Assembly: GCA_035559435.1 (NCBI GenBank)
Contig: DATMBC010000036.1
Location: forward strand, 1-39,541
DNA length: 39,541 bases
Origin: a bacterium
GTDB lineage: Bacteria > Zixibacteria > MSB-5A5 > WJJR01
Reading direction: 5' to 3'
Under the pieces are notes generated by a model. The model was not told the DNA's origin and searched no databases. It saw only the letters and a list, made by a program, of their open reading frames with translations. The translations under genes and the position numbers were made by a program. The first letter of the stretch is position 1. Every line of letters begins with the position of its first letter. Shown here piece by piece: positions 9,026-11,747 of this stretch.

Positions 9026-9865
9026 TCACTGCGTCTTTGATTCCCAGAGAATGGCGATGGCGTTCGATGTGCCGATGCGATCGGCGCCGGCTTGAAGCAT
9101 GGCCTGGGCCTGGGCGGCGGTGCGGATGCCACCGGCGGCTTTGATCCTCACGTTGGGCGGCAGGACCCGACGGAGCAGCGCAACATCTTCCAACCGCGCC
9201 TGCGCGTAGACGCCGGTGGATGTCTTGACATAATCGGCGCCGGCTTCGGCCGCCAGGGTGGCGGCGCGCACGATCTGTTCTTCCGAAAGCAGCGGCGCCT
9301 CGATGATGACTTTAAGAATGATACCCGGCCCGGCCTGCTTGCGACAGGCGGCGATATCTTCCAGGTACTCGGCGTTGCGTCCCTGCCGCAGCCAGCCGTG
9401 ATTGGCGACCAGATCGATTTCCTGCGCGCCCTGCTCGACGCAAATCCGTGTCTCGGCGGCCTTAAGCGCGGTGGCATGCGCGCCGGTCGGGAACCCGACC
9501 ACGGCGGCCACACGCACCTGTCCCTGGTCGAGCGCCTGAACCGCCGTCGCGGTCCACACCGGATTGACACAGACAGCCGCCAGGCCATACTCGCGCGCCT
9601 CCGCGCACAGACTGCGGATATCAGCTTCGGTCGCGCCCGGATGCAGAAGCGTGTGGTCGACGCGCGCGGCCAAGTCGGCTGGGATGCTCGCGATGGCCGC
9701 GGCGTTGCCCGCGGGAGCAACAGACTCGATGATAACCCGAATGCCTCGGCTGTCGAGCAGGTCGCGCGCGGCCGGGGTGATCAGCGTGCCCGGCGGGACC
9801 GTGACACTCTCGCGCGCGCCGTGCAGATCGGCCGTGGACAGCACATGGGGACGGTTGGCTGGCAT
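9026..9865 (-). CDS. deoC: Deoxyribose-phosphate aldolase with N-terminal extension
   Basis: DeoC splits 2-deoxyribose-5-phosphate into glyceraldehyde-3-phosphate and acetaldehyde. In this 279-residue protein the aldolase core starts near D70 (VDHTLLHPGAT). The Schiff-base lysine is K214 in YVKTSTGVY, the second active-site lysine is K242 in IKAAGGIRT, and the aspartate is D151 in QEIDLVANHG. Short DeoC enzymes start about eight residues before DHT, so roughly 60 residues are extra. They contain VPPGTLITPAARDLLDSRGI, a segment like one I recall from EutT-type and other microcompartment-associated proteins. Only three bases separate it from the EutN-like gene. The extension may be a targeting or docking segment; that is inference. 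Confidence 0.95.
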   Translation of the reverse strand: MPANRPHVLSTADLHGARESVTVPPGTLITPAARDLLDSRGIRVIIESVAPAGNAAAIASIPADLAARVDHTLLHPGATEADIRSLCAEAREYGLAAVCVNPVWTATAVQALDQGQVRVAAVVGFPTGAHATALKAAETRICVEQGAQEIDLVANHGWLRQGRNAEYLEDIAACRKQAGPGIILKVIIEAPLLSEEQIVRAATLAAEAGADYVKTSTGVYAQARLEDVALLRRVLPPNVRIKAAGGIRTAAQAQAMLQAGADRIGTSNAIAILWESKTQ

Positions 9866-9868
9866 CGG

Positions 9869-10144
9869 CTATCTCTGTGCGGGCAGATCGATACGGTCGA
9901 CAATGCCGATGATCGTCTCATCGGCGGCCGTCGGCGCGGTCGTGGGAGTCAGACGCGCCGACGATCCGGCCACGGTGATGACCCATTCGCCTTCGCCGGC
10001 GCCGACGGCATCGATGCAGACGGCATAATCGTCCACCGGCTCCAGGGCGCGATTGACCCGGCGCACGATCAAAAGCTTGCGGCCATCCAGGTCGGCGTGT
10101 TGGCGCCCGTTCCAAAGCGTCCCGGCGACAAATCCGAGTTTCAT
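9869..10144 (-). CDS. Bacterial microcompartment vertex protein, EutN/CcmL family
   Basis: The 91-residue protein begins MKLGFVAGTLWNGRQ and carries LDGRKLLIVRRV, then VCIDAVGAGEGEWVITVAGSSAR, ending IIGIVDRIDLP. These are the conserved blocks of the EutN/CcmL/PduN family, whose pentamers cap the vertices of microcompartment shells. Its ATG overlaps the cdd stop in an ATGA arrangement and deoC follows after three bases, so translation is coupled with nucleoside-degradation enzymes. No BMC-H or BMC-T shell gene is in the window. Either the rest of the shell is encoded elsewhere or this pentamer has a shell-independent role. Family assignment is firm; participation in a closed shell is inference. 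Confidence 0.92.
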   Translation of the reverse strand: MKLGFVAGTLWNGRQHADLDGRKLLIVRRVNRALEPVDDYAVCIDAVGAGEGEWVITVAGSSARLTPTTAPTAADETIIGIVDRIDLPAQR

Positions 10145-10554
10145 GGCGCGTCCCCCGCTCCGTCGCGCGAGAATGGCGTGGCCGGCAACTCGTCCAGATC
10201 GGCAACGTGAAGGCGGCCATCGGCCGTGGCAAGGATCAGCCGGGGATTAGCGACAAACTCACGGATCACGCCACGGCAAAGTTCGCAAGGGGGCCAGAAA
10301 CGGCCATCGGGAGCGATGACGACGATCGCGCTGAAGTCGCGTTGGCCGGCGGCAATCGCGCCGGCGATAGCGTTGCGCTCGGCGCAGACGCGCAGGGCGG
10401 AATCGGGATTCTCGACATTGCAGGCGGCAAAGATCTGGCCGGCGGTGGTGATCACCGCCGCGCCCACCTGCTTGCCGGAGTAGGGCGCATGGGCGCGGAC
10501 GCGCGCCAGACGCGCCGCATCCAGCGCCAACTTCTCATGTGCGGTCAGGGCCAT
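10141..10554 (-). CDS. cdd: Cytidine deaminase
   Basis: A 137-residue homotetrameric-type cytidine deaminase that converts cytidine and deoxycytidine to uridine and deoxyuridine. The zinc site is complete: C57-A-E59 in ALRVCAERNAIA, with E59 the proton shuttle, and C90/C93 in PPCELCRGVIREF. CNVENPDS is the substrate-binding segment. The usual PCGACR appears here as PPCELCR, a mild variation that keeps both ligands. The start ATG shares its A with the deoB stop (TGATG), and the stop overlaps the EutN-like gene by four bases. It feeds deaminated nucleosides into the phosphorolytic route completed by DeoB and DeoC. Confidence 0.96.
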   Translation of the reverse strand: MALTAHEKLALDAARLARVRAHAPYSGKQVGAAVITTAGQIFAACNVENPDSALRVCAERNAIAGAIAAGQRDFSAIVVIAPDGRFWPPCELCRGVIREFVANPRLILATADGRLHVADLDELPATPFSRDGAGDAP

Positions 10555-11747
10555 CAGATGATCTCGTGATAGAAGCTGGACGCCCCCGGCGGGCAGATCG
10601 CATCGCCGCCCAGTTGAAAGATGTCTGACAGCGTCGCCGCCAGATCGGCATACGTGGCGCGCCGTCCCAGGTTGGCTCCCCGCTTCAACGACGGCCCATA
10701 GGCCAGAAGCGGGATCAGTTCACGGGAATGATCGGTCGAGGGCGTCGTGGGATCAATACCATGATCGGCGACCAGGAAGAGCGCATCCGATGGTCCCAGC
10801 GCCGGCAGCAATTCCGCCAACCACCGGTCGAAGGCCGCCAGCCCGGCGGCGAACCCCGCCGGATCGTTGCGGTGCCCCCACACCATGTCGAATTCGACCA
10901 GGTTGGTGAAGATCAGCCCGCGCGGATTGCGCGCGAGCGCCGCCAGCGTCTTGTCCATGCCATCCTCATTGCTCTCAGTGTGGATCTTCTCCGAGAGGCC
11001 GCGTCCGGCGAAGAGATCATCAATCTTGCCGATGCCGATGGTCGGAATGTCATGCTGCCGGAGTCGGTCGAGAAGGGTCGCATCGGTCGGCTCCAGCGAA
11101 AAGTCGCGCCGCCGGTGAGTGCGCCGGAATGCGCCGGGCCTCCCGACATACGGGCGGGCGATGACCCGTCCCACCGCATCGGGACCAACGAGGATGGACC
11201 GGGCCACCCGGCAGGCGTTGTAGAGCTCTTCGACCGGAATGGCTTCCTCGTGCGCGGCAATCTGGAAGACCGAGTCGGCCGAGGTGTAAACGATCCAGTG
11301 GCCCGTGCGCAGTTGCTCGGGGCCGAGTTCATCGATGATGGCGGTGCCCGAGGCGGGCTTGTTGCCCAGCACCCCGCGACCGGTGCGCGCCATGAAGGGA
11401 TCGAGAATGTGCGGGCCGAAGCCGTTAGGATAGACGGGGAAGGGTCGTTTGAGAATCACTCCCATCAGTTCCCAGTGGCCCGAGGTCGAGTCTTTGCCTG
11501 CCGACTGCTCCTGCATGACGCCGTAGCAGCCCAAGGGCGCGGATGCGGGCGGCACGCCATCGATCGTGTCGATACAACCCAGGCCGAGTTTTCCCAGGGT
11601 CGGGCAATCAAGCCCACCGACCGCGCGGGCGGTGTTGACGATCGTGTTGGAACCGGCATCGCCATAGGCAGGCGAGTCGGGCGCCTCGCCGATGCCGCAG
11701 CCATCGAGGACGATAACGATCACGCGTTGAAGAGTCGTTTTCGCCAT
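10554..11747 (-). CDS. deoB: Phosphopentomutase
   Basis: DeoB interconverts ribose or deoxyribose 1-phosphate and 5-phosphate, supplying the DeoC substrate. The 397-residue protein belongs to the alkaline-phosphatase superfamily. Metal ligands fit the family: D15 in [13 protein letters not shown], the phospho-threonine T88 in [11 protein letters not shown]287 and H292 in [13 protein letters not shown]328 and H329 in VADHGID, and H340 in TDHSRE. The cap domain lies between about residues 100 and 220. The start overlaps the stop of the preceding membrane-protein gene by one base, and its stop overlaps the cdd start by one base. No nucleoside phosphorylase gene is present here, so the 1-phosphate must come from an enzyme encoded elsewhere. 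Confidence 0.97.

Follow-up and report, generated by a model that had tools for sequence, protein, structure and literature searches.

A EutQ-like N-terminal module on a Zixibacteria deoxyribose-phosphate aldolase: homology, predicted fold, and a probable role in docking to a microcompartment shell

The window, i.e., the whole stretch of 39,541 nucleotides that was analyzed, is mostly occupied by a ribosomal-protein cluster, and at its end four minus-strand genes lie in the order deoB, cytidine deaminase gene, eutN, and deoC. They encode phosphopentomutase DeoB (10554..11747; TIGR01696, 8.2e-131), a cytidine deaminase (10141..10554; PRK05578, 2.1e-25; PF00383), a one-domain EutN/CcmL vertex protein of the bacterial microcompartment (BMC) shell, i.e., BMC-P (9869..10144; PF03319, 4.9e-23), and, last of the row, the deoxyribose-phosphate aldolase DeoC (9026-9865; 279 aa). 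The row deoB-cdd-eutN-deoC, shell vertex gene included, forms the tail of the ribosomal-protein/rpoA cluster (window 9026-39541).

DeoC is identified by the TIGR00126 model, which matches residues 65-272 (9.4e-69; PF01791 also matches), together with the presence of the Schiff-base and partner lysines: D151, K214, and K242 are all kept, the counterparts of catalytic residues in E. coli DeoC, the two lysines being the Schiff-base lysine and its partner. The aldolase core covers residues 64-279 (9026..9676). Since the TIGR00126 match begins at residue 65 and solved DeoC structures align from query residue 61-70 or later, about 63 N-terminal residues are extra. The deoC start is the first start codon open after a stop and lies 3 bases past the eutN stop, so that the extension does not stem from a wrongly placed start. 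An earlier sequence-only reading of this DNA had proposed an N-terminal extension of about 60 residues; it is real, as residues 1-63 precede the core and the same key residues recur on the DeoC of four relatives. The peptide quoted in that reading corresponds to residues 23-42.

AlphaFold2 (AF2) predicts that residues 8-46 form a small separate alpha/beta fold with pLDDT of ~84-91, which, together with the homology described below, defines a EutQ-N-like BMC module at residues ~6-46 (9728..9850, minus strand). In the prediction of the whole DeoC, for which the input homologs spanned the barrel only, the module is a separate unit with block-mean pLDDT of 84-88 over residues 11-40; predicted alone with three distant relatives, it reached a pLDDT of 91 and a pTM of 0.66. 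Its predicted secondary structure comprises strands at about residues 20-23 and 43-46, with a 10-residue helix (31-40) between them. The segment between module and core (residues 47-63; 9677..9727, minus strand) is predicted to be disordered, with pLDDT < 50 at residues 50-58, i.e., it has the character of the flexible linker to cargo that is expected with an encapsulation peptide (EP). The module is thus a small alpha/beta fold and not mainly an amphipathic helix of the kind suggested earlier. A search for a solved relative of the module gave only insignificant matches with sequence profiles and a best E of 0.38 with Foldseek, and the best VIA-align hit (Z 4.4, to Cas1) falls inside the common range. 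One half of the module, T-P-x-A-R-x-x-A-x-x-x-G-I (residues 30-48, window 9722-9778), bears a loose resemblance to the peripheral subunit-binding domain found in E2 proteins of dehydrogenases; one PDB chain of this kind, 2eq9_C, matched at an insignificant 0.32.

The extension is kept on the DeoC of four relatives, namely the congener G002, the family members G003 and G004, and G013 of the same class, which share with some variation the pattern [VLI]-I-T-x-x-D-[LIV] ... V-P ... I-I-T-P-x-A-x-[DE] ... [GN]-[IV]-x-[IVL]. It is absent on the DeoC of the congener G001, of the family members G005 and G006, and of G007 and G008, which belong to the same order. Inspected by eye, DeoC proteins of other phyla either begin at the barrel or, in several acidobacterial, planctomycete, chloroflexi, and spirochaete loci, have an extension of another kind, which contains an EP-like helix and often a cysteine-rich stretch. 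Two further arrangements of DeoC were seen: in the congener G001, which is without BMC genes, cytidine deaminase and DeoC share one 394-codon open frame with no intervening stop (L121 5666-6850), a possible Cdd-DeoC fusion, and in five genomes (L014, L021, L022, L023, and L026 of G010, G025, G046, G032, and G057) DeoC belongs to a longer frame (460-475 aa) whose N-terminal part looks RpiB-like by eye, similar to the Marinimicrobia fusion described in PMC4207490.

The relationship of the module to other BMC proteins was evaluated with profiles. When the five DeoC extensions alone were scanned against the 18,950 models of NCBIfam, 12 of the 13 matches listed were to EutT, EutQ, PduM, or TIGR02536 models (E 3.7e-4 to 0.13), the remaining one being pyridoxal kinase (0.05); the matched regions were the EutT N-terminus, EutQ residues 3-48, the PduM C-terminus (two models), and the TIGR02536 C-terminus. 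Pfam returned one match, PDU_like (0.0017). The resemblance to EutT that had been suggested from the motif is borne out: residues 20-44 of this DeoC by itself aligned with positions 21-45 of the EutT model of NCBIfam, at a weak E of 0.05, and E. coli EutT, like E. coli EutQ, bears the motif at the same place. Please note that single pairwise matches are weak, as this value illustrates, and that the case for homology rests on profiles. An HMM built from E. coli EutQ and EutT only, run against 12,011 ORFs of the fetched loci, placed this DeoC second among non-self matches (7.8e-4), the other non-self matches of the top five being the DeoC of G002 (4e-4), a Caldithrix protein (0.0015), a Brevibacillus PduL (0.0021), and the DeoC of G003 (0.0053); the sixth stood at 0.18. 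An HMM of 10 non-DeoC BMC proteins ranked the five DeoC extensions 11th-15th of the 12,011 ORFs, directly behind its ten own members, at 9.6e-9 to 2.9e-5 (this DeoC, 4.6e-8), followed by an Anaerolineales BMC-locus protein (0.0035) and then by nothing below 0.34. Profile-profile alignment (hhalign) of the DeoC extensions with the non-DeoC carriers gave 98.6% and 1.3e-15. Some rows of the 10-member HMM, and of the hhalign profile, had been found via the DeoC profile, which makes these two results partially circular, a circularity that the EutQ and EutT HMM avoids. There is also a transitive link: the DeoC-only profile finds a 112-residue Caldithrix protein at 6.7e-4, and that protein in turn matches the NCBIfam EutQ model over 2-99 at 5.5e-10. 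Judged from these profile comparisons, the homology of DeoC residues ~6-46 to EutQ ~3-48 (helices H1/H2) is strong.

Within the N-terminal domain of EutQ (1-99), the DeoC module aligns with the ~3-48 (H1/H2) half. EutQ differs in having the EP-binding half H3/H4 and a cupin domain, both of which are absent from DeoC, where the module is followed by the 17-residue linker and then the aldolase; in contrast to EutQ, a catalytic enzyme here carries the module directly. The C-termini of PduM (TIGR04493 112-153; PF15953) and TIGR02536 represent the same module by profile match; they carry it C-terminally on structural proteins, whereas DeoC carries it N-terminally. The EutT N-terminus has the same L-T-P-x-A-R motif at the same position, although EutT is an adenosyltransferase, unlike DeoC. 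We know of no function assigned to this N-terminal segment of EutT.

In its own genome DeoC is the sole carrier of the module (next match, E 0.82). To look beyond DeoC, we searched 39 genomes from other phyla, covering 39 of 80 loci plus one further locus, with the DeoC-only profile, with acceptance mainly at E <= 0.01. All five matches at this threshold fall in BMC-locus proteins, and all five genomes have BMC-H: an Ardenticatenia protein in which an EP, the module, and RpiB are joined, adjoining an EP-DeoC and BMC-P (2.6e-7); an acidobacterial module-class II aldolase whose C-terminus bears an EP-like helix (6.3e-6), three BMC-H places being 2.5-3.5 kb off on the same contig; the C-terminus of a Paenibacillus TIGR02536-like protein adjoining BMC-P, an aldehyde dehydrogenase (AldDH), and BMC-H (1.4e-4); the Caldithrix protein already mentioned, which stands alone near BMC-H and AldDH and which, from its match to the EutQ model, represents the EutQ adaptor half without the cupin; and a planctomycetotal module-RpiB flanked by BMC-P genes (0.005). 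Just past the cut-off, one Brevibacillus BMC locus contains a module-PduL and a TIGR02536-like protein (0.015 and 0.022). The RpiB, class II aldolase, PTAC, and TIGR02536 identities of the carrier domains were confirmed. At the permissive E <= 0.5, 21 of the 39 genomes matched, of which G168, G142, G160, G152, G154, and G132 were accepted; a match in G159 (0.021) was dismissed as chance, being a 32-residue frame with a stop, and so was everything weaker, judged on frame lengths only. In the same class as the window, G033 encodes an EP-module protein that ends in a partial RpiB-like domain.

The sequence-only reading had named the occurrence of the extension on DeoC from many genomes devoid of microcompartment genes as the result that would refute it. 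BMC-H (PF00936) was found in 41 of 132 genomes of the window's class, and the module, at E <= 0.01, in six of the 132. These six all belong to the 41 (hypergeometric 6.9e-4), whereas at this threshold the module is missing from each of the 91 BMC-H-negative genomes; within the class, then, the reading was not refuted. Ten more class genomes matched at E <= 0.1 and were dismissed as chance, and none of them passes a second profile at 0.01; G014, G092, and G093 among them have BMC-H, and the other seven are not among the 41. Outside the class, BMC-H is present in 18 of the 39 genomes, including all six with an accepted module. Within the family, a contrast of seven genomes only, the module, EutN, and BMC-H occur together in this genome (G000), G002, G003, and G004 and are jointly absent from the congener G001, G005, and G006 (4/4 versus 0/3, p 0.029), the deoC locus of the last three having no eutN. 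In a tree of DeoC cores, in which several forks are weak, the module-less DeoC form two groups on different branches among module-bearing ones, a pattern that fits two joint losses of the module and the BMC genes. Such joint loss is an association and is not itself docking.

The BMC genes of this genome are scattered. There are two BMC-H genes, one on contig C64 adjoining a EutE-type aldehyde dehydrogenase (PRK15398, 7.1e-178) with an EP-like N-terminus, and one on C54 followed by another aldehyde dehydrogenase; four BMC-P matches are on C36, which is the contig of the window, and on C53 and C4. Relatives add, by eye, PduS/RnfC-like and BMC-T genes, and have BMC-P triplets (G002 C89, G003 C166, G004 C31) at a site that in G000 is interrupted by contig ends (C53, C4). 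Profile searches found no PduL in the genome and no RpiB (PF02502) in the assembly. Since RpiB is, according to PMC8217296, common to all SPU subtypes, membership in the SPU BMCs was ruled out. In the SPU/HO BMCs (PMC4207490, PMC8217296), too, the DeoC aldolase is among the BMC enzymes and has a targeting extension at its N-terminus; that extension is EP-like and differs in type from the one described here. With shell genes on C64 and C54 and on C36, C53, and C4, AldDH near some of them, and BMC-P triplets in relatives, the BMC resembles the FRAG BMCs of PMC8217296, a likeness judged by gene layout. No obvious signature enzyme is described for FRAG types in that source, and DeoC is a candidate for one here. 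Together with DeoB, cytidine deaminase, and the acylating aldehyde dehydrogenase, DeoC would make up a deoxynucleoside pathway, which we infer to be that of the BMC. The second BMC-H type of the family has a conserved C-terminal extension, YxSMTVxALRxLARRRxDLxIxGRxIAxADx (L120 6843-7346; L153 3782-4345; L156 6563-7117).

We propose that the BMC-specific module of ~40 residues, joined to the TIM barrel of DeoC via the disordered linker, would tether the enzyme to the inner shell of this BMC, whose shell genes are spread over several loci. DeoC would then be fastened to the shell directly and not via an EP and an adaptor, which is the simplest reading given that the module matches only the H1/H2 half of EutQ. 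Docking to the shell of a scattered, FRAG-like, deoxynucleoside-degrading BMC is, by analogy with EutQ, the most likely role of the module, and one in which we place reasonable confidence. According to PMC12487888, EutQ residues 1-99 target sfGFP to the Salmonella Eut BMC, and EutQ without residues 9-41 (H1/H2) stays with the cargo while EutQ without 62-99 (H3/H4) stays with the shell; as far as this source goes, EutQ is the only module protein whose shell association is in print. EutQ also binds EutM in vitro, and truncation of its N-terminus abolishes the binding (PMC4827028); there, the face of EutM that makes the contact is the presumed cytosolic one, but in PMC12487888 EutQ lies inside. 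This disagreement counts against the proposal, as does the lack of the H3/H4 half in DeoC. EutM residues K53 and D57, required for this binding in vitro, are well conserved among EutM homologs generally (PMC4827028), so that their retention in the EutM-like BMC-H of this genome, in which Q64 is G, is not diagnostic. Docking specifically to the adjacent EutN, which had been suggested from the position of its gene, is not supported: for EutQ H1/H2 the reported site of action is the EutM/EutL interface, and no eutN is seen beside the module-bearing deoC of G013.

A different target for the module would be the enzyme core, i.e., it would be a core-scaffold domain that docks DeoC to EPs or to some other cargo protein. 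PduM, a module carrier, is strongly cargo-associated and went with the cargo, not the shell, when PduB 1-37 was absent (PMC9132943); a protein that carries the module yet follows the cargo indicates that the module may bind core proteins or may need other contacts. Several carriers also bear EP-like helices, indicating that the module does more than stand in for an EP. In EutQ, however, EP peptides bind residues 63-99, the NMR shifts on binding map there and, in the data described in PMC12487888, none to H1/H2, and deletion of H1/H2 leaves EutQ with the cargo; we therefore consider core docking unlikely, though it is the strongest competitor of shell docking. It is far less probable that the extension is a classical EP, i.e., an amphipathic helix, with some extra sequence. 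The N-terminal position, the disordered linker, the adjoining BMC-P gene, and the 10-residue helix at 31-40 would agree with such a peptide, and an encapsulation peptide was one of the roles first suggested. In the strict sense of a 15-20 residue amphipathic helix, this was rejected on the predicted alpha/beta fold and on the length of the main helix, only 10 residues; the best 18-residue hydrophobic moment is 0.55, located on the last strand and the linker, versus 0.72 for the EP-like segment of the AldDH, and the EP-like helix on DeoC of other phyla is quite different by eye. Least probable of all, and hardly credible, is a metabolic or regulatory role (ligand sensing, DeoC oligomerization) for a module that travels with BMC genes by chance, which might draw on the small size of the family contrast, but which sits poorly with a module whose carriers, enzymes as well as non-enzymes and unrelated in fold, are all BMC proteins, and with its absence from every BMC-H-negative genome of the class.

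Returning to shell docking, a wider proposal follows, toward which we lean only slightly: the module would be a BMC-wide docking domain, unrecognized as a family of its own, that fastens enzymes and adaptors to shells across BMC types and phyla. A scattered, FRAG-like BMC for deoxynucleoside breakdown would then have DeoC for its signature enzyme. The proposed carriers are the enzymes DeoC, RpiB, class II aldolase, PduL, and EutT and the adaptors EutQ, PduM, TIGR02536, and the stand-alone EutQ-N-like proteins. We found no description of a shared module in the open-licence literature, although subscription journals or preprints might hold one; PduM is said in PMC12108088 to be without known homology outside Pdu, Pdu appears to be without a EutQ homolog in the account of PMC4827028, and a text search of PMC12339742 did not return the terms EutQ, PduM, DeoC, or aldolase. 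The attachment of cargo to the shell is among the central problems of BMC assembly. The DeoC extension acts as a bridge sequence that links EutQ H1/H2, the EutT N-terminus, the PduM C-terminus, and TIGR02536, hitherto treated as unrelated. If true, a BMC-wide docking domain would bring together EutQ and PduM as shell-core linkers, would give PduM a testable mechanism, and would offer a new type of tag for loading enzymes into engineered shells; deoxyribose-5-phosphate would become a candidate substrate for scattered BMCs that PMC8217296 describes without a signature enzyme.

Gram-positive EutQ is reported in PMC12487888 to be without helices 1-3, and in these bacteria a different protein, TIGR02536-like, may have come to carry the module instead; if so, this would explain how their Eut systems cope with such a EutQ. 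TIGR02536-like proteins with a C-terminal module were seen in Gram-positive BMC loci at L177 13-855 and L174 1504-2265. Stand-alone EutQ-N-like proteins with no cupin also occur in BMC loci, one of 112 aa (L175 1321-1659, the same as L195 3455-3793) and one of 121 aa (L107 11389-11754). The DeoC-extension profile has no match in G164, the genome of the latter, though the non-DeoC HMM gives the 121-aa protein 0.0035, and the NCBIfam EutQ model matches the two proteins at 5.5e-10 and 0.0083, respectively. They are possible minimal shell-cargo adaptors.
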